47,060 nucleotides of DNA, from the NCBI GenBank assembly GCA_023664865.1, contig JAMPEU010000001.1, positions 145,121 to 192,180 on the forward strand. The letters run 5' to 3'. This DNA comes from Butyrivibrio sp. Its GTDB lineage: Bacteria > Bacillota > Clostridia > Lachnospirales > Lachnospiraceae. A model generated the notes under the pieces. The model had not been told where the DNA came from. It saw only the letters and a program-made list of their open reading frames with translations, and did not search any database. Below, piece by piece: positions 1 to 46,889 of this stretch; positions within the stretch are counted from its first letter, which is position 1, and every line of letters starts with the position of its first letter. The position numbers and the translations under genes are program-made.

Positions 1-244
1 TCACCACGATTTTTTTCTTACGATACTTCTCCGGCAAATCGGGTACTGCATGGTAGTGAGGCAGCTTTGCCTTTTCCTCCGGATTGGTAGTATTGTTCTC
101 GATAACCTTGCTGCGGACTACATTAAGTTCTTTGGGTGCGTCAATCATAATCCTCAAATGATTTTTGCTGCCGCCTAAGAAAACAATCTTTACGTCTTCC
201 CCAATCATCAAGTAGTCTTCTGCACTAACTGTAAGTCTTAACAT
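1..244 (-). CDS. csrA: CsrA-family RNA-binding regulator (3' end outside window)
   Basis: Reading leftwards from the ATG at 242-244, 81 codons are visible before the edge. The start MLRLTVSAEDYLMIGED, the middle LGGSKNHLRIMIDAPKEL and Arg44 in NVVRSK align without gaps to CsrA/RsmA, a small dimeric protein that binds GGA motifs in mRNA leaders and, in Bacillus, represses flagellin translation. A strong ribosome site (GGGAGG) lies 7 bases before the ATG. Two points are odd: the basic residue at position 6 of E. coli CsrA (Arg6, used in RNA contact) is Val here, and the protein continues past the usual 60-75 residues with a Lys-rich tail. Its start is 45 bases from the left recombination site of an apparently invertible segment, so its promoter probably lies in or beyond that segment. 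Family call is firm; retained RNA binding is inferred. Confidence 0.85.
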   Translation of the reverse strand, partial: MLRLTVSAEDYLMIGEDVKIVFLGGSKNHLRIMIDAPKELNVVRSKVIENNTTNPEEKAKLPHYHAVPDLPEKYRKKKIVV

Positions 245-289
245 TTTAAAACCTCCCTGCTTTTTCTTTTTTAAAAGTGCCGCCCTGCT

Positions 290-317
290 ATGCAACATTT
301 GTATGAAAATGTTGCAT
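290..317 (+). repeat. left 28-bp recombination site of the invertible segment
   Basis: The site has an 11-base arm ATGCAACATTT (290-300), a 6-base asymmetric spacer GTATGA (301-306) and a perfectly complementary 11-base arm AAATGTTGCAT (307-317). This 11-6-11 geometry is the classical layout of a tyrosine-recombinase crossover site (dif-like). The copy at 1035-1062 is its exact reverse complement, including the spacer. The flanks do not match, so the repeat is exactly 28 bp. Confidence 0.88.
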
Positions 318-353
318 GAAAACAAATCGTTGTATATTTATATGAGATACAAC
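312..353 (+). promoter_or_regulatory. possible recombinase promoter with operator-like inverted repeat
   Basis: A TTGCAT hexamer (312-317) lies inside the right arm of the left recombination site. It is followed after 15 bases by TATATT (333-338), a weak sigmaA-like arrangement with short spacing. Overlapping it is a 7-base inverted repeat, GTTGTAT at 329-335 and ATACAAC at 347-353, suited to be an operator or a leader hairpin. If real, recombinase occupancy of the site would cover the -35 region of its own gene. Confidence 0.35.
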
Positions 354-376
354 AAAACAAGAAAAGGAGAAATTTC

Positions 377-958
377 ATGAGTACAACTTATCCAATTAAA
401 GACGAAGAAAAACTGGAAAAATTCAAGGAATATTTTTTGACAAAGAAACCGATTTACCGAAACTATGCTCTGATTATTCTGGGATTGAACACTGCCTTTA
501 GAATCGGGGACCTTTTACATCTGAAATGGAAGGACGTATTTAATATGAAAGAAGGCTGTTTTCGGAGACATATCTATGTAATTGAACAAAAGACGGGAAA
601 AGAACGGATTGTTGCCGTCAATGCGGCGGTTGCAAACGCACTGAAAATATTGCAAAGCGATTTAGAATACGCGGGCGAAGAGCAATATCTTTTTCCTAGT
701 ACCCGCAAGGCTGATAATCCTATTTGTCGTTCGCAGGCATTCCGTATTATAAAGGAAGCAGCGGAGTATGCAGGAATTGAGGAACGTGTGAGCTGTCACT
801 CTCTGCGCAAGACTTTTGGTTACTACGCGTGGAAGCAGGGCGTTCAGCCCGCTATGCTGATGGATATATATAATCATTCTTCTTATGGCGTCACAAAACG
901 CTATCTGTGCATCGAGCAGGACGAAAGAGATAAAGTGTACATGGAGATATGTCTGTAA
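377..958 (+). CDS. small tyrosine recombinase, probable DNA invertase
   Basis: This 193-residue protein consists almost only of the tyrosine-recombinase catalytic domain. Visible active-site residues are Arg42 (TAFRIGDLL), the beta-hairpin lysine in QKTGKER (72-75), His141 and Arg144 (HSLR), His167 (NHSS) and the nucleophile Tyr176 (KRYL). It lacks the N-terminal core-binding domain of XerC/XerD-type integrases of about 300 residues. It matches the size of FimB and FimE, which flip promoter segments. A ribosome site (AAAGGAG) precedes the ATG by 9 bases. The gene sits between two exactly inverted 28-bp sites, so it probably inverts the segment it lies on, controlling csrA next door. An integrase remnant of a mobile element is the alternative, but all catalytic residues are intact and no other mobile-element gene is present. 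Confidence 0.9.
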   Translation: MSTTYPIKDEEKLEKFKEYFLTKKPIYRNYALIILGLNTAFRIGDLLHLKWKDVFNMKEGCFRRHIYVIEQKTGKERIVAVNAAVANALKILQSDLEYAGEEQYLFPSTRKADNPICRSQAFRIIKEAAEYAGIEERVSCHSLRKTFGYYAWKQGVQPAMLMDIYNHSSYGVTKRYLCIEQDERDKVYMEICL

Positions 959-989
959 AAAAGAATTTTTAATTTTTTTAAATTTGCTA

Positions 990-1016
990 TAAAGTATTTA
1001 AAATAAGCTCCGATAT
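990..1016 (+). promoter_or_regulatory. sigma28 (SigD/FliA)-type promoter inside the invertible segment
   Basis: TAAA at 990-993 is followed after exactly 15 bases by TCCGATAT at 1009-1016. The known sigma28 consensus is TAAA-N15-GCCGATAA/T, so only one base of the -10 element differs. It lies just after the recombinase gene and before the right recombination site. It now points rightwards into the terminator at 1125-1169. After inversion it would fire into csrA from a short distance. The call rests on motif match and spacing; activity is untested. Confidence 0.68.
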
Positions 1017-1034
1017 ATGTAGTGTAAGTAATCA

Positions 1035-1062
1035 ATGCAACATTTTCATACAAATGTTGCAT
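1035..1062 (-). repeat. right 28-bp recombination site of the invertible segment
   Basis: Arms ATGCAACATTT (1035-1045) and AAATGTTGCAT (1052-1062) flank the spacer TCATAC (1046-1051). The spacer is the reverse complement of GTATGA in the left site, so the two sites are in inverted orientation with no mismatch over 28 bases. Homology ends exactly at the outer edge of both arms. Confidence 0.88.
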
Positions 1063-1124
1063 TCTTTTTATTATTTTCCTTATAATATTATTTTCAATAC
1101 ATAATAAATCAAAATCCACATAAT

Positions 1125-1169
1125 AAAAAGAGATACAGTCTTTATTATTTAGAGTCTGTATCTCTTTTT
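1125..1169. terminator. strong bidirectional intrinsic terminator
   Basis: A perfect 14-bp stem (1125-1138 with 1156-1169) and a 17-base loop carry an A-run on one side and a T-run on the other, so it can act on both strands. On the plus strand it would stop transcripts leaving the invertible segment; on the minus strand it would stop read-through from the chemoreceptor gene into the switch. Confidence 0.85.
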
Positions 1170-1194
1170 ATTACATATTTGCCGATACTTGGAA

Positions 1195-3666: not shown

Positions 3667-4980
3667 CTACAAATCGGCAGGAATGTTCATAATCAGCCTG
3701 AATATAAACACTCCGTTATCATTTTTAAAATCGTATTCTCCTTCATATTTTTCCGCCGTCTTAATTATGCTGGAAACGCCGATTCCACCTGTAAATTCCG
3801 TTTTAGGCTGTCCGTCTTCCAGTTCAGTCTCCAGACGGCAGGTATTGCTGCAAAAGATAATCAGTTTATTTTTCTTCTTTCTAATCATTAGATGAATCGC
3901 ACACTCCCGCGCTCCTGATTGCTTCTTTACTTCCATGCAGGCATAGATGGCATTCTCATAAGCGTTGGCAAGTATCGCTACTAAGTCGATATTCGGTATC
4001 GCCAAATCCCTGCCGATTTCGATATCAAGCTTAACTTTGATATTCTCATTCCGCGCCTTTCTTGTATACGCTGAAAGAATATTGTTAATTGCGGCATTGG
4101 CGCATATTTTCTCCACTGCGCCCTCGTCCGTCTCCTTATCATACTCCTGTAAATACTGCAGCAGCTCTTCCTTCTGCCCGCGGCGCGCATATTCCGCTAT
4201 CACGGCGTTATGATGCCGCACATCATGGCGGAGCCGCCTGCCCGACTCTACAGAATCTTCCAAAATCTCAAGCTGGCGCTCCAACAATCTATGGTTCATC
4301 TGTATCAACTGGTTTTCCCGCTCATATTCCTTCTCTTTACCAAGATGCAGATAAAAGTGAATCATAAGCAGCTGCAGGGTACCCGTCAGCACAAAATTAA
4401 CAATAATCTGATATAGACGGTATCCCGTCGCATCTTTTAAGTTCGGGTTTAAGATAAATCCAATGCCAAGCATAATGCTAATAATCATAATGGCAACGCT
4501 GAACTTATCTACTTCTTTCGTCACATAATCACTGAAATCCCTAATGCTGTCTTTCAATTTCCTATCTATAATAAATGTCATAACCAGAATAAGAATAACG
4601 CGCGTTACGATATCTGCCCATACATTTCTGTCAAAGAAGATTACTGCGACTTCCAGCCCGCCAATTAGGAATACGGCAAGCAGATAAAAAGTCAGCGCCA
4701 GTTTATAGATAGACAGATACACAGAATCCCTGCTCATAAATATAGCAAAGACCATAAAGCACATGTACATTGCAAACGCCACAATTCGCACGCAGCTCTC
4801 CCAGTCCACAACATACCAAATACATGCGCCGGCAATCAAAATAGCGCTAAATACGCTATAATAGGCAATTGTCTTATTTCTGTTAAACCGCGATTCACTT
4901 ATTCTGGAAAATAATAGAACCACGCCTGCAAGACTTATTGCAAACCGAACAAGTGCTACATACACCGAACCGCCTAACAT
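3667..4980 (-). CDS. AgrC-like GHKL sensor histidine kinase
   Basis: The 437-residue protein has six or seven hydrophobic segments (about residues 5-225), a coiled linker, an H-box in the form RRLRHDVRHHNAVI (around 250) and a GHKL ATPase domain with ENAIYACM (N-box) and GGIGVSSI (G-box). This is the AgrC/ComD type of peptide-sensing kinase. AAAGGAG lies before the ATG. Its transcript probably begins at the extended -10 element at 5031-5039. It pairs with the LytTR regulator directly downstream. Confidence 0.88.
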   Translation of the reverse strand: MLGGSVYVALVRFAISLAGVVLLFSRISESRFNRNKTIAYYSVFSAILIAGACIWYVVDWESCVRIVAFAMYMCFMVFAIFMSRDSVYLSIYKLALTFYLLAVFLIGGLEVAVIFFDRNVWADIVTRVILILVMTFIIDRKLKDSIRDFSDYVTKEVDKFSVAIMIISIMLGIGFILNPNLKDATGYRLYQIIVNFVLTGTLQLLMIHFYLHLGKEKEYERENQLIQMNHRLLERQLEILEDSVESGRRLRHDVRHHNAVIAEYARRGQKEELLQYLQEYDKETDEGAVEKICANAAINNILSAYTRKARNENIKVKLDIEIGRDLAIPNIDLVAILANAYENAIYACMEVKKQSGARECAIHLMIRKKKNKLIIFCSNTCRLETELEDGQPKTEFTGGIGVSSIIKTAEKYEGEYDFKNDNGVFIFRLIMNIPADL

Positions 4981-5030
4981 ATATTCTATTTCTCCTTTGG
5001 ATTTAGAGTCTTAAAAATCAGGTCTTAAAA

Positions 5031-5039
5031 ATTATACCA
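5031..5039 (-). promoter_or_regulatory. extended -10 promoter of the AgrC-like operon
   Basis: On the minus strand TGG is directly followed by TATAAT, an extended -10 element. It lies about 50 bases before the kinase start. No good -35 hexamer is seen, as is common for this promoter type. Confidence 0.6.
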
Positions 5040-5141
5040 CATATTAATCGACAGAAAAAGAGATAAACCGACACATAGCACAGATTGCACCTTTTGCGGC
5101 ATCGTTTGCAGGAAAAAATACTGGAAGAGCGCAGTTTGATT

Positions 5142-5150
5142 TGATATAAT
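5142..5150 (+). promoter_or_regulatory. extended -10 promoter of the PP2C phosphatase gene
   Basis: TGA followed by a perfect TATAAT forms an extended -10 element about 20-35 bases before the candidate start codons. It is divergent from the promoter at 5031-5039. Confidence 0.6.
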
Positions 5151-5169
5151 AGAAATCGATATCAGACAA

Positions 5170-6606
5170 ATGAGGTATGCAGAATTGAAACAGAAGAAAA
5201 AAAACAGAAAAGACAATGTAAATACGGATTTGGAGCTGCGGGTTCTTCTCGAAAACGAAACGGAAGCCAATATCTACGCAGCAAAATGCCTGTCGGTCTG
5301 CTCCGGCGTAGGCGCACTGGCATGGATTTTCAATCTGGTCGGCATCTTCATCGTTCCGGCTGCAATTATGAATACCGCCATGCCCGTTTTAATCGTATGC
5401 TTTCTTTTTCCGAGTTTACTTTGCAGGCTGACGGACGGTAAGCCGTCCTGGCTGAAATATGTTGTTATATTCTGCGCTACAATGGGTATTTTTATTCTGT
5501 CCAGCGCCATGCCCAAGCATGGAGTCCTTGCCTGGACGCTGCCGCTTTTTTTAAGCTGCCATTATTATTCCAAGAAACTGACAAACATTACCCTTGTAGC
5601 ATCATGGCTGCTTTTTTCCGCCTCTATTTATATAGGGCTTTATTTGGGCGAGGGAGACTTAAATATGCTTCTTGATCCGAACACATTTACCCCCAATCTC
5701 CCTACCGGAGAACTGCTGTATAATTCCACACTATTTTTCGTAGTGCCGCGCGCCCTCATTCTTCTCGGCCTCTCCTCCATATGTACTTCAATTGCCGGAC
5801 GGACGCGCCGCTTGTTGGAAAAGCAGATTAAAGACAGTGAAGAACACCAGCGCATATCCACTGAGCTTGATGTGGCGACACATATTCAAGCGGATATGCT
5901 GCCGCGTATCTTCCCTGCCTTTCCGGAACGCCCGGAGTTTGACATCTATGCCACTATGAATCCTGCCAAGGAAGTCGGCGGCGATTTCTATGATTTCTTT
6001 ATGGTGGATGAAACCCATCTTGCCATCGTAATCGCGGACGTATCGGGAAAAGGCGTTCCCGCCGCGCTCTTTATGGTAATAGGCAAGACGCTGATTAAAG
6101 ACCATACCAAACCGGGGATAGATTTAGGCGACGTATTCTCCGAGGTAAACGATTTGCTGTGTGAATCCAACAGCGAAGGATTGTTTATCACGGCTTTTGA
6201 AGGAGTTCTGGATTTAGTGAGCGGAGAATTCTGTTTCGTCAACGCAGGGCATGAAATGCCTTTTATCGCAAAATCAGGCGGTGTCTATGAAGCGCATAAG
6301 CTGCGTGCCGGATTCGTACTTGCCGGCATGGAGAATATGAAATATCAGAGCGGACGAATACAACTTTCGCCCGGAGACAAGATTTTCCAATATACCGACG
6401 GCGTGACGGAAGCCACTAATGCAGCGCATGAACTGTATGGCATGGAGCGGCTCACCGATATTCTTGTGAAAAATACTGATAAACCGCCCGCTATGCTGCT
6501 TCCCACAGTAAAAGCGGATATTGATGCCTTTACAGGCGATGCGCCGCAGTTTGACGACATCACCATGCTTTGCGTGGAATATGTAAAAGCGATGTCTGCA
6601 GATTAA
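5170..6606 (+). CDS. membrane PP2C-type (SpoIIE/RsbU-like) serine phosphatase
   Basis: The protein (478 residues from the ATG) has about six membrane segments (roughly 40-210), a short helical linker, then a SpoIIE/RsbU phosphatase domain. Metal-binding motifs are visible: VGGDFYDFF, IADVSGKGVPAALFM, NAGHEMPF, YTDGVTEA and a C-terminal DDITML. Such enzymes dephosphorylate STAS anti-anti-sigma proteins in partner-switching pathways. A STAS protein and RsbW-like kinase are encoded nearby on the other strand (9533-10261) and are the likely partners. ATGAGG at 5165-5170 would be a ribosome site for a TTG start at 5185, so the real start may be codon 6. The 3' end overlaps the convergent response regulator by four bases. 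Confidence 0.88.
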   Translation: MRYAELKQKKKNRKDNVNTDLELRVLLENETEANIYAAKCLSVCSGVGALAWIFNLVGIFIVPAAIMNTAMPVLIVCFLFPSLLCRLTDGKPSWLKYVVIFCATMGIFILSSAMPKHGVLAWTLPLFLSCHYYSKKLTNITLVASWLLFSASIYIGLYLGEGDLNMLLDPNTFTPNLPTGELLYNSTLFFVVPRALILLGLSSICTSIAGRTRRLLEKQIKDSEEHQRISTELDVATHIQADMLPRIFPAFPERPEFDIYATMNPAKEVGGDFYDFFMVDETHLAIVIADVSGKGVPAALFMVIGKTLIKDHTKPGIDLGDVFSEVNDLLCESNSEGLFITAFEGVLDLVSGEFCFVNAGHEMPFIAKSGGVYEAHKLRAGFVLAGMENMKYQSGRIQLSPGDKIFQYTDGVTEATNAAHELYGMERLTDILVKNTDKPPAMLLPTVKADIDAFTGDAPQFDDITMLCVEYVKAMSAD

Positions 6607-40062: not shown

Positions 40063-41109
40063 ATGTTACCAATTACAGTCTGCATGATTGCAAAAAACGA
40101 AGATATACATATTGAAGAATGTTTAAAGAGGCTCAGGCCATGCAAATTTGAAATCGTCGTCGTAGATACGGGTTCCGTGGACAGAACCGTTGAAACGGCA
40201 AAAAAGTATACCAATAAGGTATACCACTTCGACTGGTGCAGCGATTTCAGCGCCGCGAGAAACTTTTCCGTCTCCCAAGCGTCAAACGACTGGGTTCTGG
40301 TAATAGACTGCGACGAATATCTGGAGAATATCAATCTTGCAGATATAGAATATACGCTGAAAGACAAATGTGCCTGTGCGGGAATGATTATCCGCAATAA
40401 TCCGTATATCATCCAAGGCGTCCGCTCCATTATGACGGAACGCATTGCCAGGCTTTTCAACCGTAAGTATTGCCACTATGAAGGCAGCGTACATGAACAG
40501 GTAATGCGTCTGGACGGAACAAGGCCGGAATTATTCCAGCTTCCACTAACCTTCTACCATGAGGGCTATGTCACGGAGTCTGATAAGCGCATACGCGCTA
40601 CGCGTAATCTGGAAATGCTTCTGCATGACTTGGACGTGAAAGGCCCTGATCCATATATATACTTCCAACTCGGACAGAATTATCTTTCCCTGAACGATAT
40701 GGAGAAAGCAATATATTATTATAAAGAAGGACTTGGGCTTGACTCTAACCCGCATGCTGAATTTGTTCAAAGCATGATTGAGACTTACGGCTACTGCCTG
40801 ATTGAGCTTGCCAAATATGACAGCGCCTTAAGCCTGGCGGAAAAATATGACCTGTTTGCCAACCGTGCGGATTTCGTCTACCTGATGGGTATGATATATA
40901 TGAAAAAAGGCATGTTGGAGCAGGCTCTTGCAGAATTCAAAAAAGCTACTACTATGTCAGAGTTTTCAAGAAAAGGCGTAAACAGCTATCGCGCTTATTA
41001 CAATATTGGAAACATCTACGAAACATTAGGCGATAAGGAAAAAGCCAAAGAATATTACAGTAAATGCGGCGACTTTAACGATGCCGCCAAAAAAATGGAA
41101 GAAGTGTAA
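40063..41109 (+). CDS. GT2 glycosyltransferase with TPR tail, copy 1
   Basis: The 348-residue protein has an N-terminal GT2 domain (about 1-190): PITVCMIAKNED, VVVDTGSVDRT (Asp35 for the nucleotide), DFSAARNFS (61-69) and the metal-binding D-C-D (82-84 in VIDCDEYL). The C-terminal part is a set of TPR-like repeats (PYIYFQLGQNYLSL, ADFVYLMGMIYMKKG, YRAYYNIGNIYETLGDKEKA) that could bind a protein substrate, as in the SunS glycopeptide transferase. First of five related genes in the array beside flagellin; O-glycosylation of flagellin is the likely role. Confidence 0.85.
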   Translation: MLPITVCMIAKNEDIHIEECLKRLRPCKFEIVVVDTGSVDRTVETAKKYTNKVYHFDWCSDFSAARNFSVSQASNDWVLVIDCDEYLENINLADIEYTLKDKCACAGMIIRNNPYIIQGVRSIMTERIARLFNRKYCHYEGSVHEQVMRLDGTRPELFQLPLTFYHEGYVTESDKRIRATRNLEMLLHDLDVKGPDPYIYFQLGQNYLSLNDMEKAIYYYKEGLGLDSNPHAEFVQSMIETYGYCLIELAKYDSALSLAEKYDLFANRADFVYLMGMIYMKKGMLEQALAEFKKATTMSEFSRKGVNSYRAYYNIGNIYETLGDKEKAKEYYSKCGDFNDAAKKMEEV

Positions 41110-41111
41110 CG

Positions 41112-42230
41112 ATGCTGCCGATTTCTATATGTATGATTGCTAAAAACGAGGAACAGCATATCGAGGAATGTCTAAGCAGGCTAAAACCATACTATAATGA
41201 GATAGTTTTGGTCGATACCGGCTCTACTGACGGCACTCTTGCAATCGCAGCAAAGTATACTGATAAAATCTATCACTTTGACTGGATTAATGATTTCAGT
41301 GCAGCAAGAAATTATTCTATTGCTCAGGCAACAAATGACTGGATACTCAGTATCGACTGTGACGAATATTTAGAGTCTATTGACAGCAGTATGCTTTTAC
41401 AGTTAATAAATAACCATACTAGCGAAGTCGGGCAGGTTTTAATCCGCAACCGTTTCTCTCAGAACGGACAGGCTGCAATCGAAAATATCCGTCTCAGCCG
41501 CTTATTTAACAGGAATTATTTTCATTATGAAGGTTCTATCCATGAACAGCTTGAAAGAAAATCATCGTCGGCAGACGGCAGCCTTAAATGCAATAACGGT
41601 ATGCACTCTGATATGCGCTCTGCCTTGCCTATACCGGCTTTTATAGTGCCGCTCACTCTTCTGCATGTCGGTTATGACGGCTCTGAAGAAGAAATGCGCG
41701 CCAAGGCGTTTCGCAATATCGCATTATTAGAAAAAGAACTTGAGATAAAAGGTGAAGACGCTTATATTTATTATCAATTAGGTCAAAGCTGCGTTAGACT
41801 TAAAGATTATGGGAAGGCGTATGAATGGTTTAATCTTGGACTCTCTATGGACCTTGACATCACACAGGGATATGTTCAGAATATGGTGGAAGCCTATGGC
41901 TACTGCCTGCTGGATATGAAACGGTTTGACGAGGCTTTGCTGTTAGAAGGCATATATGATGATTTTGCCGTCAGGGCGGATTTCGTTTTTTTGATGGGCT
42001 TAATCTATATGAACAATGCACGGTTTAACGATGCGATTGAAGAATTCAAAAAAGCTGCCACAATGGAACAGTTTTCTGTAGAAGGCACTAATAGCTATCG
42101 TGCCAATTATAATATAGGCGTAATCTATGAGTGTATGGGACAGATTAACAAGGCGCGTGAATACTATATAAAATGCGGCAGCTTTGAGCCTGCAAAGCAG
42201 CGTCTTTCTTATTTGGAATTTGAAAGTTGA
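41112..42230 (+). CDS. GT2 glycosyltransferase with TPR tail, copy 2
   Basis: The 372-residue protein has the same plan as copy 1 (CMIAKNEEQHIEECL, VLVDTGSTDGT, INDFSAARN, SIDCDEYLESI) and TPR-like repeats to the end. It is the longest copy, with an insert of roughly 25 residues near 150-180 (KSSSADGSLKCNN onward) before PLTLLHVGYDG. It starts 2 bases after copy 1 ends, so the two are translationally coupled. Confidence 0.85.
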   Translation: MLPISICMIAKNEEQHIEECLSRLKPYYNEIVLVDTGSTDGTLAIAAKYTDKIYHFDWINDFSAARNYSIAQATNDWILSIDCDEYLESIDSSMLLQLINNHTSEVGQVLIRNRFSQNGQAAIENIRLSRLFNRNYFHYEGSIHEQLERKSSSADGSLKCNNGMHSDMRSALPIPAFIVPLTLLHVGYDGSEEEMRAKAFRNIALLEKELEIKGEDAYIYYQLGQSCVRLKDYGKAYEWFNLGLSMDLDITQGYVQNMVEAYGYCLLDMKRFDEALLLEGIYDDFAVRADFVFLMGLIYMNNARFNDAIEEFKKAATMEQFSVEGTNSYRANYNIGVIYECMGQINKAREYYIKCGSFEPAKQRLSYLEFES

Positions 42231-42261
42231 TTATATATCAAAAATATGTCATACTATCTAT

Positions 42262-43446
42262 ATGAAAATATTATTTATTGAGTGGGCGAGTTTCGGAAAT
42301 ACGGATATGAAAGAGGCGTTCTGTAAAGAGGGCCATACTCTTGTATGCTTTCCCTTTTCCAACAAAGATTCAAGGCGCGACGATATGATAGAGGCTGAAC
42401 TGTCCGCCGTCCTGCGACGCGAAACGCCAGATATAGTCTTTTCATTCAATTATTTTCCCGTTATTTCCAACACATGCAAAAAAAATGATATACGCTATAT
42501 ATCATGGATTTATGACAGCCCATATGTAATGCTGTATTCATATACTACCATAAATCCCTGTAATACTATTTATGTGTTTGACAAGGAGTTATATTTTGAA
42601 TTCCATAAGGCTGGCATAAAAACCGTACACTATCTGCCTATGGCGGCTAATCCGGAAAGATTGGATAGACTTAAGCCAATGACAGCTAATCCAGAAGAAC
42701 CGAACGCAAGTAAACTGACAACTAATGACTTGAAATTCCTGTATGATATTTCCTTCGTCGGTTCACTTTATACAGAGAAACATAATTTTTTTGACAGAAT
42801 GACACAACTGTCAGATTATGCAAAGGGTTATTTGGACGCGCTGATGGCTTCGCAGATGCAGGTACAGGGCTATAACTTCATTCAGGAGTCCTTAGGTCCC
42901 ATAATGAACGATTTATATAGCGCACTGCCAATGGAGCCTAATTCCGATGGAGTGGAAACAAAGGAATATCTGTATGCACAGTATGTCATTAACCGCAAGA
43001 TTACCGGATTAGAGCGTACAAGCCTGATTAAAGCAATAACGCAGAAACATAAATTTGACCTTTTTACACATGATCCTGAGTTCAAGCTGCCCAATCTGAT
43101 TAACCACGGCAGTATCGAACCGTATCGGGAGATGCCGTTAGTGTTTAAACAAAGCAGGATAAACCTTAATATTTCCCTTCGCAGCATCAAAAGCGGCATC
43201 CCACAGCGCGCTTTTGACATTATGGGGAGCGGCGGCTTTTTACTCAGCAACTATCAAAATGACTTCATGGACTCATTTATTCCGGGAGAAGATTTTGTAT
43301 TCTATGAAAGTAAAGAGGATTTATTAAATAAAATAGATTATTATCTTGCAAACGAAGACGAACGGCGCGCTATCGCGGCAAACGGACATGACAAGCTGGC
43401 AGAGGCACATACGTATCGACACAGAGTGAGGGAGATGCTGCAATAA
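42262..43446 (+). CDS. CgeB-like glycosyltransferase (DUF3880/GT-B)
   Basis: The 394-residue protein has an N-terminal Rossmann half (MKILFIEWASFGNTDMKEAF, then PDIVFSFNYFPVISNTC and YISWIYDSPYV) and a C-terminal glycosyltransferase group-1 half (INLNISLRSIKSGIPQRAFDIMGSGGFLLSNYQNDF). This plan is that of CgeB-type proteins known from spore-surface glycosylation in Bacillus and often present in flagellar glycan loci. The start at 42262 lies beyond the end of copy 2; longer readings would overlap it. MAANPE and MTANPE form a short internal duplication near residues 130-150. The ribosome site is weak. Confidence 0.82.
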   Translation: MKILFIEWASFGNTDMKEAFCKEGHTLVCFPFSNKDSRRDDMIEAELSAVLRRETPDIVFSFNYFPVISNTCKKNDIRYISWIYDSPYVMLYSYTTINPCNTIYVFDKELYFEFHKAGIKTVHYLPMAANPERLDRLKPMTANPEEPNASKLTTNDLKFLYDISFVGSLYTEKHNFFDRMTQLSDYAKGYLDALMASQMQVQGYNFIQESLGPIMNDLYSALPMEPNSDGVETKEYLYAQYVINRKITGLERTSLIKAITQKHKFDLFTHDPEFKLPNLINHGSIEPYREMPLVFKQSRINLNISLRSIKSGIPQRAFDIMGSGGFLLSNYQNDFMDSFIPGEDFVFYESKEDLLNKIDYYLANEDERRAIAANGHDKLAEAHTYRHRVREMLQ

Positions 43447-43523
43447 CCTGCAAGTTAAATTAAGGATGAACAGCTCTTGAACGTGCCAATTTTCGTAAAT
43501 TAAGCAAGTATGGAGGTTTAAAT

Positions 43524-44600
43524 ATGGTTCCTATTTCAGTATGTATTATCACAAGAGATGAAGAAAATAAAATCGGCAAATGCTTAGCGCCGCTTGTGCC
43601 ATACGGCTTTGAAATCATAGTCGTTGACACCGGCTCTGTTGACCGCACCAAGGATATTGCCCGCGAGTATACGGACAAGGTCTATGATTTTGAATGGATT
43701 AATGATTTCAGCGCGGCGAGAAACTTTTCCCTGAAAAAGGCATCCCATAACTACGTACTGGTTCTGGACAGCGACGAATATCTGGTAGACTTGGATATAG
43801 AGGCGCTGTATGAGGCTATAGAGAACCACCCCCGCGGAGTCGGCATGCTGCTTCGTAATAACTATTATGATTCAAGAGGAAAAATATATAATTCACCGGA
43901 TAGAGTAGAGCGACTGTTTCATAAGCGTTACTACTACTACAGACAGACCATACACGAGCAGGTAACGGATATCAAGACCAACGGAACTTACTATGAGCGT
44001 TACAATATTCCGCTTACGATAGACCACGACGGATATATGGGCGATGAAGAGGCTAAGCGCAAAAAAGTTGAAAGAAATAATTCGCTGCTCTTTAAGGAAA
44101 TTGAAAAAAACCCTAACGAGCCGTATTTCTATTTTCAGGTAGGACAGTCCTATAACAGTATTGACGATTATGAAAATGCCTATATCTACTATAAAAAGGC
44201 TTTTGAACATAATATCAGCCCGGACCAGCCCTGGCTATTGACGATAGCGACTGCCTTTATGGTCTCCATGACCTCGACGGGGCGGCACAAAGAAGCTCTT
44301 GATTTCTTTGAACCGATTTATAATAACTTCGCTAATGACGCAAGCTTTCTCTGCAACATGGGGCTTGTTTACCTCAATAACAATATGCCGCTTAAGGCGA
44401 TGATGGAATTTGTCAAGGCAACGCAGTGTCCAAACAGCGAAGTTGAGGGTTCTAATACTTTTATCGCCTACTACAACATAGGATTAATCAATGAAACCCT
44501 AGGCAAGCTTCCTGAAGGGATTGCATTTTATAAAAAGTCCGCCTCTTACGGGTATCCGCTGGCGATAAAGAGGCTGCAGGATCTGGGCATATTATCATAA
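43524..44600 (+). CDS. GT2 glycosyltransferase with TPR tail, copy 3
   Basis: The 358-residue protein matches copies 1 and 2 in its GT2 domain (CIITRDEENKIGKCL, VVDTGSVDRT, INDFSAARNFS, VLDSDEYLVDL with D-S-D as metal site) and has TPR-like repeats (PYFYFQVGQSYNSIDDYENA and onward). GGAGG lies 8 bases before the ATG. It is separated from the CgeB-like gene by 77 bases with nothing else seen. Confidence 0.85.
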   Translation: MVPISVCIITRDEENKIGKCLAPLVPYGFEIIVVDTGSVDRTKDIAREYTDKVYDFEWINDFSAARNFSLKKASHNYVLVLDSDEYLVDLDIEALYEAIENHPRGVGMLLRNNYYDSRGKIYNSPDRVERLFHKRYYYYRQTIHEQVTDIKTNGTYYERYNIPLTIDHDGYMGDEEAKRKKVERNNSLLFKEIEKNPNEPYFYFQVGQSYNSIDDYENAYIYYKKAFEHNISPDQPWLLTIATAFMVSMTSTGRHKEALDFFEPIYNNFANDASFLCNMGLVYLNNNMPLKAMMEFVKATQCPNSEVEGSNTFIAYYNIGLINETLGKLPEGIAFYKKSASYGYPLAIKRLQDLGILS

Positions 44601-44608
44601 TAATGCAG

Positions 44609-44692
44609 AGTTCAGTCAAAATGAACAAAAACAGGGCTCCAATGCCTGAAAAGCGGTAAGTCGCCCCTTATTTTGTTCATTTTGACTGAACT
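44609..44692. repeat. perfect 22-bp inverted repeat element between GT copies 3 and 4
   Basis: Arms of 22 bases (44609-44630 and 44671-44692) are perfectly complementary, start AGTTCAG and end CTGAACT, and enclose about 40 bases with no strong further pairing. There is no classical T-run, so it is not a simple terminator. It shares its terminal 7 bases with the palindrome at 1195-1361. Confidence 0.75.
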
Positions 44693-44723
44693 ATAAATAT
44701 TGAAATCTGAAAGGAAAATCATT

Positions 44724-45785
44724 ATGCTTCCAATATCCGTATGTATTATAGCTAAGAATGAAGAGAATAGAATTGAAAAATGCCTGTCTTCGCTCAAGCC
44801 TTATGGTTTTGAGATTATAGTGGTCGATACCGGTTCTACAGACCGCACCAAAGAAATCGCCGGAAAATACGCTGACAAGGTGCTTGACTTCGAGTGGTGC
44901 GATGATTTCAGCGTCGCCAGAAATTATTCTCTTCGTGCGGCTTCCAATAACTGGATATTTATGATTGACTGCGACGAATACATTAAAACAATAGATATAG
45001 AGGAGCTTAACTGGTTTCGCAAGCACTTGGCCAACAGCGTGGGTTCAGTATCCCGTGAAAATATAGTCACAGAAAACGGCATTCCTGTCATTAATAACAC
45101 CGACAATACCGAGCGTTTTTTTGACAGACGGCTATACCGCTATACCGGAATGATACATGAACAGCTTACTCCAATCCGCAGCAAGGATTTTACGGCATAT
45201 CTGTTAAAAACCACGATATTGCATACCGGATATGATATGGGCAATGAAGAGTGCATTGCCAAATATGAGCGCAACCTTACCCTCCTTAAGAAACAGCTTG
45301 CCACGGATTCCGATAACCCCTATCTGTATTACCAGTTAGGCAAGACCTGTGAAATAGTCGGCGACTATTCCCGCGCTTGCGATTATTACAGCAAAGGGCT
45401 TTCATATGATTTAGACCCTGAACTCGCCTATGTTCAGGCTATGGTGGTTTCTTACGGAAACGCACTCCTGCTGACCGGACAGCATGAAACCGCACTGGGC
45501 TTTGAAAGCATCTATGACGCATTCTCCCCTTCGGCGGATTTTGTATATCTGATGGGGAATATCTATAAGCAGAATCAGATGTATGAGCAGGCACTTGAAC
45601 AGTATCAAAAGGCAATCGGCATACCTTTGTGCAAACAAAACGGGGCGAACAGCTTTCTTCCTATATTCCGCACAGGTGAAATCTGTGAGATTCTGGGCGA
45701 TGTTTCTACCGCTATTGCATGCTATAGCCAATGCGGAGATTTTACACCTGCAAAAGAAAGACTTAAAGCATTAAGCGGACAGTAA
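44724..45785 (+). CDS. GT2 glycosyltransferase with TPR tail, copy 4
   Basis: The 353-residue protein begins at the ATG at 44724, behind AAAGGAAA. It has the GT2 motifs CIIAKNEENRIEKCL, VVDTGSTDRT, DDFSVARNYS (Val where other copies have Ala) and MIDCDEYI, followed by TPR-like repeats (PYLYYQLGKTCEIVGDYSRA, ADFVYLMGNIYKQNQMYEQA). Confidence 0.85.
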   Translation: MLPISVCIIAKNEENRIEKCLSSLKPYGFEIIVVDTGSTDRTKEIAGKYADKVLDFEWCDDFSVARNYSLRAASNNWIFMIDCDEYIKTIDIEELNWFRKHLANSVGSVSRENIVTENGIPVINNTDNTERFFDRRLYRYTGMIHEQLTPIRSKDFTAYLLKTTILHTGYDMGNEECIAKYERNLTLLKKQLATDSDNPYLYYQLGKTCEIVGDYSRACDYYSKGLSYDLDPELAYVQAMVVSYGNALLLTGQHETALGFESIYDAFSPSADFVYLMGNIYKQNQMYEQALEQYQKAIGIPLCKQNGANSFLPIFRTGEICEILGDVSTAIACYSQCGDFTPAKERLKALSGQ

Positions 45786-45833
45786 ATTCCTGTCAGGGCC
45801 TTAATGCTGTGATATATAAGGAGTGAATAAATC

Positions 45834-46889
45834 ATGATTCCTATTTCTGTATGTATAATTACCAAAAATGAGGCGGAACATCTTGAAGAATGCTTAGCGG
45901 CATTACAGACATATAATTTTGAAATCGTCGTTGTTGATACCGGTTCAACTGACAACTCCAAAGAGGTTGCCTTAAAATATACCAACCGGGTATATGACTT
46001 TGAATGGATCAATGACTTTAGCGCTGCCCGCAACTTTGCGATAAGCCGCGCTTCTCATAATGTTATTTTATCGCTGGACACAGACGAATTTGTTAAAGAA
46101 CTGGATTTAGAGGCTCTCGATAAATTAATCCAGGAAAATCCCAAAAGCGTGGGTTCGGTCGAAATGCTCAATTATTTTGAAGATAAAGGCTCTATTCGAT
46201 ATCAAACCGCTATGCTGGACAGGCTGTTTAACCGTAAATACTATCGTTTCGAAAATCCTATCCACGAAGTGCTTACGCCTATCGCCAATATCCCTTATAC
46301 TTCCTATAAAACCCCTATTGTAGTTAAGCATGTGGGTTATCTTGGCAGCAAAGAATTTCTGGATGAGAAGTCTCTGCGCAATATGGAGCTTCTTAGGGAA
46401 GAACTTAAAAGCGAACCTGAGAATCCATACCTTTATTTCCAGATTGCCCAATGCTATATGATGATGCGGGATCCGGAACATGCCGCAGAATATTTTAAAA
46501 CCGCGCTTGACCACAATCCAAATCCAAACGACGAATATACACGCATACTTGTTGATAATTATGGCAGCATTTTATTGGATAATATGAAAGTTGAAGAGGC
46601 GATGCAATTTTTGTCTTATTATGACTATTTCAACGATAATGCAGATTATCTGTGTATGATTGGACGCGCCTATATCCTAGCCAATCAGCCGCTTAAAGCG
46701 CTGCCTGAATTTGTCAAATCACTTACAGCATCCTCGCGGGATTCGATAGAGCCAAGATATGCCTCATACCATATAGGCTTCATATATGAGCTGTTCGGAA
46801 AAAAAGATATTGCCGCAGAACATTACCACAGATGTGGTGATTATGCTCCGGCGTTGGGAGCGTTGGAACGCATTGAAAAACTCAAATAA
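45834..46889 (+). CDS. GT2 glycosyltransferase with TPR tail, copy 5
   Basis: The 351-residue protein has CIITKNEAEHLEECL, VVDTGSTDNS, INDFSAARNFA and SLDTDEFVKEL (D-T-D at the metal site), then TPR-like repeats (PYLYFQIAQCYMMMRDPEHA, ADYLCMIGRAYILANQPLKA). AAGGAG lies 10 bases before the ATG. It converges on flagellin, with the shared terminator hairpin between them. Confidence 0.85.
   Translation: MIPISVCIITKNEAEHLEECLAALQTYNFEIVVVDTGSTDNSKEVALKYTNRVYDFEWINDFSAARNFAISRASHNVILSLDTDEFVKELDLEALDKLIQENPKSVGSVEMLNYFEDKGSIRYQTAMLDRLFNRKYYRFENPIHEVLTPIANIPYTSYKTPIVVKHVGYLGSKEFLDEKSLRNMELLREELKSEPENPYLYFQIAQCYMMMRDPEHAAEYFKTALDHNPNPNDEYTRILVDNYGSILLDNMKVEEAMQFLSYYDYFNDNADYLCMIGRAYILANQPLKALPEFVKSLTASSRDSIEPRYASYHIGFIYELFGKKDIAAEHYHRCGDYAPALGALERIEKLK

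Follow-up and report, generated by a model that had tools for sequence, protein, structure and literature searches.

A recombinase cassette upstream of a csrA-like gene very probably makes a second flagellin phase-variable in Lachnospiraceae

We analysed a stretch of DNA 47,060 nucleotides long (the window; G000:C92:145121-192180, G000 being the source genome), at whose left end a tyrosine recombinase gene lies between two inverted sites, next to a csrA-like gene. The features of this region are as follows.

1..244, minus strand: switch-type csrA (CsrA2), its 3' part absent at the window edge; PF02599, E 1.7e-16
245..289, minus strand: csrA leader with a Shine-Dalgarno-like GGGAGG, read from the sequence
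290..317, no strand: csrA-side recombination site, putative; exact 28-nt inverted partner of 1035-1062, with 1 T in the 8 bases beyond it towards csrA
377..958, plus strand: tyrosine recombinase of 193 aa inside the putative invertible segment; PF00589, E 4.4e-27; key residues invariant
990..1015, plus strand: sigma-28 (SigD/FliA) promoter motif TAAA-N16-CCGATA, a consensus match, outward and away from csrA
1034..1073, plus strand: predicted intrinsic-terminator-like structure, made up of the distal site and a T-run; shuffled versions of this region average 1.0 terminator-like hits too
1035..1062, no strand: distal recombination site, putative; exact inverted partner of 290-317, placed by the genome core scan

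The two sites (290-317 and 1035-1062) are 28 nt each, 100% complementary, inverted and 717 nt apart, an exact match that far exceeds chance. Read directly, each has 11-nt arms flanking an asymmetric 6-nt spacer, ATGCAACATTT-GTATGA-AAATGTTGCAT. In a scan of the 3.82-Mb genome that allowed 3 mismatches at most to the 24-nt core, only these two places were free of mismatches; four further places had 2-3, and a reversed control pattern gave five places. The sequence-only reading had described two exact inverted 28-bp sites around an intact tyrosine recombinase beside a csrA-family gene, a description borne out by the complementarity and by the PF00589 and PF02599 matches. The interval between the cassette and a chemotaxis-like gene holds a second hairpin at 1121..1173 (24-nt arms, 92% complementary), a possible terminator, and a long inverted repeat at 1195-1361 (46-nt arms, 91% complementary, 75 nt apart), perhaps a small mobile element or an RNA element.

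PF00589 was the sole Pfam family above its cut-off in the recombinase protein, and no serine recombinase domain of the Hin family was found there. Residues R42, K72, H141, R144, H167 and Y176 are invariant across 28 aligned sequences, that of the window included; we take them to be the catalytic R-K-H-R-H-Y set of tyrosine recombinases. The domain and the conserved set together place the protein in the tyrosine recombinase superfamily. It scored 37.1 bits against a cut-off of 221 with NF007370 and 43.2 against 222 with NF007371, presumably the FimE- and FimB-like NCBIfam models, and hence does not qualify as a FimB/FimE-type invertase. No sigma-70-like match that could serve as the recombinase's own promoter was present within 290-376. 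Within the genus, 21 of 37 genomes (own genome counted) carry homologues with E < 1e-50. Beyond the genus they are scattered: of 397 genomes drawn evenly from the family, 30 have them (E up to 1e-45), as do 71 of 392 genomes of the order (E up to 1e-20); the genome collections hold one genome per species. Among the carriers are the cultured Eubacterium sp. 14-2 (L129) and Petralouisia muris NM01_1-7b (L118), presumably gut isolates; bacterium 0.1xD8-71 (L092) and bacterium 1xD42-87 (L093) are further cultured carriers. In three genomes (L121, L122 and L124, near position 5001) a recombinase homologue adjoins genes that read as ATP-synthase-like, with no visible sites.

Our first survey covered the window and 107 other loci, with csrA within 4 kb in 76 and none in 32; two duplicates were dropped from the 76, leaving 74. 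A second survey added 25 loci, 13 with csrA (12 after removal of one duplicate) and 12 without. The csrA-linked set is thus 86 loci, window included (74 + 12); these are related by descent and their counts are not independent, with near-identical loci (L071/L072, L099/L106) counted separately. In 83 of the 86 the order is recombinase cassette, csrA, flagellin, the last on the same strand and downstream of csrA. At the three exceptions (the window, L146 and L147) a gap or the sequence end is reached before any flagellin. There is no csrA nearby at 44 of 133 recombinase loci (32/108 and 12/25), 19 of which we looked at. One cassette lies beside tandem csrA-flagellin-csrA-flagellin arrays at L130, L111 and L113.

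The first base of the window is the edge of a 100-N assembly gap inside csrA, and at another gap in the same G000 contig the csrA 3' end occurs again, with flagellin after it. Given these two breaks, at least two csrA-flagellin copies in G000 very probably broke the assembly, and a flagellin would be expected behind the window's csrA, beyond the gap. Towards the other end of the window (40063-46889) an array of similar glycosyltransferase-like genes lies beside flagellar-looking genes, both by reading; the array possibly serves flagellin glycosylation.

The csrA-like frame starts at 244 on the minus strand; 45 bases separate this start from the left site. Its product belongs to the CsrA family (PF02599, 60.3 bits against a cut-off of 27); with a query that lacks its 3' end, it fell short of the NCBIfam equivalogs for canonical CsrA (38.1 bits against 73 and 31.5 against 70.1). 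Identity between CsrA2 and canonical CsrA is just 21-24%. L4 and R44, which we take to be RNA-binding residues, are kept in CsrA2 and are invariant across nine aligned CsrA proteins. All ten genomes checked have a canonical csrA (a 72-aa frame; two matches in G000) and one to three switch-type csrA genes each. They also have 6-11 Flagellin_N matches each; the weakest of these, found next to canonical csrA, probably represent hook-associated proteins. Since each checked genome also has the canonical gene, it is improbable that the switch controls the CsrA programme as a whole, as the earlier reading had suggested for motility.

Recombination sites that pair with each other should share a spacer. 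Agreement is inflated in pairs optimised on their partner (65 of 66 central 7-mers), so we re-called the sites independently and recounted. With 9-nt spacers called in this way, the central 7 nt are the same in left and right sites at 51 of 52 loci (shuffled partners: mean 3.16, max 10), and there are 29 distinct cores among those 52. Both sides could be called at 67 loci, and at 47 of these the whole spacers agree (shuffled: mean 1.83, max 8). Spacers thus differ from one locus to another, yet the two of any one locus tend to match, which is what sites obliged to recombine with each other should show. Genome G020 has three cassettes with three different spacers. The outer arm is more variable on the csrA side than at the distal site. 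At nine of the 86 loci our script found no site pair, although two of these, L130 and L254, show shorter repeats.

The sigma-28-like motif was first noticed in the window and afterwards tested at the other loci. With our first pattern, it was found outward beyond the recombinase stop in 61 of 74 loci, against 1, 2 and 1 for the other three position and strand classes; 100 rounds of dinucleotide shuffles gave a mean of 3.15 and a maximum of 9. A relaxed pattern, applied to the cassette ends only, detected an outward motif in 72 of 86 loci and an inward one in none. TAAA-N16 is present in 49 of 74 motif hits, and the full TAAA is missing in 23. The Butyrivibrio sigma-28 consensus given in PMC3720852 is TAAA-N16-17-MCGATAa, which the TAAA-N16 motif of the cassette fits. 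The arrangement is that of an inverton, with inverted sites around an outward promoter, the promoter being a consensus match; 990-1015 is accordingly a candidate promoter.

Relative to csrA, the motif points away (OFF) at 68 loci and into csrA-flagellin (ON) at four (L084, L088, L130 and L156); 14 of the 86 are unclassified. It lies at the 3' end of the recombinase gene in 70 loci (66 OFF, 4 ON) and at the 5' end in two (L256 and L257, both OFF). L254, one of the 14 without a scripted motif, has a 5'-end motif when a wider stretch is read by hand, again facing away from csrA and hence OFF. In the window the motif sits at the csrA-far end and points away, so the window shows the OFF state. The direction of the recombinase alone was rejected as an indicator of state: at L254, L256 and L257 the recombinase faces csrA and the motif faces away, which makes them OFF.

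For the main flagellins we fetched 12 regions, eight of which yielded nine such genes near canonical csrA; eight of the nine have a sigma-28 motif at about -160. Three of the 12 regions (L228, L235 and L237) gave no flagellin match, and that of L238 holds three other flagellins, one with a sigma-28 motif at -88. Among switch flagellins, a sigma-28 motif between csrA and flagellin was found in 1 of 71 (L088, an ON locus). At L136:4906-5690 a cassette lies between two divergent flagellins with similar leaders, its single sigma-28 motif aimed at one of them; this looks like an either/or flagellin switch. At L096:2360-6697 a recombinase and a sigma-28 motif occur near two divergent flagellins, with no csrA and no clear sites.

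The single terminator-like match at 1034..1073 is weak when taken alone. Across loci, at least 5 T in the 8 bases outward were counted beyond 71 of 77 distal sites and beyond 6 of 77 csrA-side sites; the site pairs used here were partner-optimised, and the T-run itself was no part of that choice. The distal hairpin has the higher predicted stability in 52 of these 77 loci, equal stability in 10 and lower in 15. The uneven distribution of T-runs suggests that the distal site probably ends OFF transcripts.

Comparison of related genomes for the two orientations, proposed earlier as a check, found both: four ON and 68 OFF among the 86 loci, and an inverted pair of sister cassettes at L140 and L141. 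When L130 is set against L113, L111 and L128, the cassettes share a strand, whereas the csrA-flagellin flank is reversed. The change-over falls at the sites; identity is 73-79% in the cassette and near flank. Beyond about 15 nt past the site the distal flank of L130 cannot be aligned to its relatives, so that only the csrA side speaks for an inversion there. The strongest case of flipping is the sister cassette, which has a recombinase of the same family. The flanks of L140 and L141 are 99.94% identical over 4814 bp per side, and the 910-bp cassette between them is 99.8% identical but inverted, with the outer half-sites remaining with their own flanks. Its recombinase is 53% identical to that of the window, and it lies between other genes, not at csrA-flagellin. 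The two assemblies (Candidatus Blautia intestinavium CHK186-553 and Candidatus Eisenbergiella intestinipullorum CHK177-9469) are, to judge by their names, of chicken origin; they may be one lineage binned under two names, which would leave the point about inversion unchanged. At about 4884-5793 of these loci the cassette sits between divergent operons with genes that read as glycosyltransferase- and ABC-transporter-like, an arrangement suggestive of either/or control over surface glycan genes. The rarity of ON (4 of 72 classified) could mean slow or strongly biased switching.

We consider it very likely that 290-1062 is an invertible cassette, carrying its own recombinase and a sigma-28 promoter, that makes a second flagellin phase-variable via csrA2. 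At the level of sequence, what supports this is the anatomy of the cassette, its conservation, the direction of the motif, the occurrence of both directions in relatives and the natural inversion of the sister cassette. With the same segment standing ahead of csrA-flagellin in relatives, flipping very probably switches the second flagellin on and off, and 290-1062 would be expected to invert in this strain too. The recombinase would recombine the two sites, with crossover within the matched spacer, and so flip the cassette. In the OFF state, the orientation of the window, the promoter would face away from csrA, and its transcript would meet the distal hairpin and T's and probably stop. In the ON state it would face csrA and drive csrA2 together with the flagellin behind, which mostly has no sigma-28 motif of its own. 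A second flagellin would thereby become phase-variable, with its production linked to the flagellar sigma factor.

The sequence-only reading held that the segment inverts and sets csrA alone, from a csrA promoter at the 5' end of the recombinase gene, so that the window would be csrA ON. Its first half stands, since matched spacers, both directions in relatives and the inverted sister point to an invertible segment that carries its own recombinase; csrA as the sole target does not, because flagellin lies behind csrA in 83 of 86 loci and the target would thus be the csrA-flagellin pair. Control by promoter inversion is a known mode, and the left site is just 45 bases from csrA, both of which suit the csrA-alone version. 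Against it, the window has neither a sigma-70-like site on the minus strand nor an outward sigma-28 motif between the recombinase and csrA, and where a motif does occur at the recombinase 5' end (L254, L256 and L257) the cassette is turned so that the motif faces away from csrA. A promoter of an unlisted type at the left end is possible; even so, we regard control of csrA alone as very improbable.

Two further explanations were weighed. The cassette might be a frozen, vertically inherited module whose recombinase no longer flips it and whose palindromes are merely terminators, as the single promoter direction common to 68 of 72 classified loci would allow; an intact recombinase with invariant key residues, spacers that match within and not between loci, the existence of ON loci and a sister cassette inverted between near-identical loci speak against this, and we give it slightly less credence still. 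Alternatively, a mobile or plasmid-type resolvase unit might have landed beside csrA by accident. Relatives of < 60% identity in 1859 plasmid and 160 phage records, distal neighbours that vary between the genomes compared and the 44 of 133 recombinase loci without nearby csrA are in keeping with such a unit. However, the same layout recurs in the 86 csrA-linked loci (flagellin in 83, outward motif in 72, distal T-run in 71/77), an order that random insertion would not yield; an accidental landing is thus rejected as the least credible of the explanations, with next to no probability.

Returning to the flagellin switch, we looked for a role of CsrA2 in the flagellin leaders, using loci of the first survey only. 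Of 70 switch-flagellin leaders, 62 have a GGA-loop hairpin ahead of the Shine-Dalgarno sequence, and these hairpins have 47 different stems between them (shuffled: mean 3.3, max 8). Hairpins of this kind were recognised by eye in all nine leaders of main flagellins as well, five of them bearing CAAGGATG. The same motif is marked for CsrA on an alternative fliC leader in PMC13418256 (CAAGGAUG), which makes cross-repression by CsrA2 plausible, and CsrA of Bacillus represses translation of Hag (PMC6529632). CsrA2 most likely binds the GGA hairpins of flagellin leaders and probably tunes flagellin translation; it may limit its own flagellin. Judging from the leader hairpins, it may perhaps also silence the main flagellin of the chromosome, in the way that FliC of Salmonella is repressed by FljA. 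That Lachnospiraceae independently evolved a Salmonella-like flagellin exclusion, with a self-flipping tyrosine-recombinase cassette to turn on a csrA2-flagellin operon, CsrA2 silencing the main flagellin through the hairpin in its leader and the distal site as OFF terminator, is a tentative proposal to which we give somewhat less than an even chance.

Closest in logic are the published hin-csrA-tldR-fliC loci (PMC13418256), and the working mode is like that of Hin-fljBA. According to PMC13418256, Flavonifractor plautii has an inverting segment with a FliA-dependent promoter upstream of csrA-flagellin loci, and an Oscillibacter CsrA tested in E. coli was enriched on the alternative fliC leader, its motif lying in a predicted stem-loop. 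The likeness is an inverting promoter segment upstream of linked csrA and flagellin genes; those loci have hin, a serine invertase, beside an inversion of ~120 bp and an RNA-guided repressor, TldR (PMC13418256), whereas the present cassette is ~770 bp and has a tyrosine recombinase inside the segment. No TnpB-derived TldR was identified beside a switch csrA in the ten genomes scanned, with profiles that could miss a strongly diverged one. PF07282 gave 9 hits in five of the ten genomes, none in G000 or G020, and PF01385 a single sub-cut-off hit, all of them off the switch-csrA contigs. In Salmonella Hin-fljBA (PMC9368917) the promoter is likewise on the invertible segment, which contains hin, and the operon encodes the flagellin FljB and the repressor FljA; the recombinase there is a serine recombinase and the regulator FljA, as against a tyrosine recombinase and a CsrA-family protein here. 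The RecV switches of Clostridioides difficile (cwpV and flg; PMC2784873, PMC10889297) share the tyrosine recombinase and inverted repeats, and cwpV also the intrinsic terminator in the OFF transcript, proposed there (PMC2784873) and inferred here. They differ in that a single RecV serves cwpV and flg alike, in that the promoter of cwpV lies beyond the invertible segment, and in the length of the flg segment, 154 bp.

Unlike E. coli FimB and FimE, the window protein scores far below the NCBIfam tyrosine-invertase cut-offs given above. FimB and FimE are tyrosine recombinases, and the fim recombinase genes lie outside the invertible segment. As in the present cassette, the fim switch has a promoter segment flipped by recombinases between inverted repeats (PMC2784873). 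An inverton group of Clostridia has been tied to a tyrosine-recombinase family in PMC11892184, the main text of which has no word starting with flagell or csrA; that group could include the present recombinase family. Among the matches listed in our literature search, which had subscription papers and preprints mostly outside its scope, no paper was on the Lachnospiraceae cassette, and the nearest was PMC13418256. We conclude that the cassette is most likely a flagellin switch that resembles Hin in its working but relies on a tyrosine recombinase.

If this is true, the logic of Hin-fljBA has been rebuilt from unrelated parts, and a recombination site may double as a terminator. Should the exclusion proposal also hold, multiple cassettes that occur together in a genome and differ in their spacers would be independent switches. 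Antibodies to gut flagellins are under study in both Crohn's disease and chronic fatigue syndrome. Were inversion to switch a second flagellin, findings from serology, TLR5 and motility work would depend on the orientation present in culture or in the gut, and the state of the switch would be directly readable from metagenomes.
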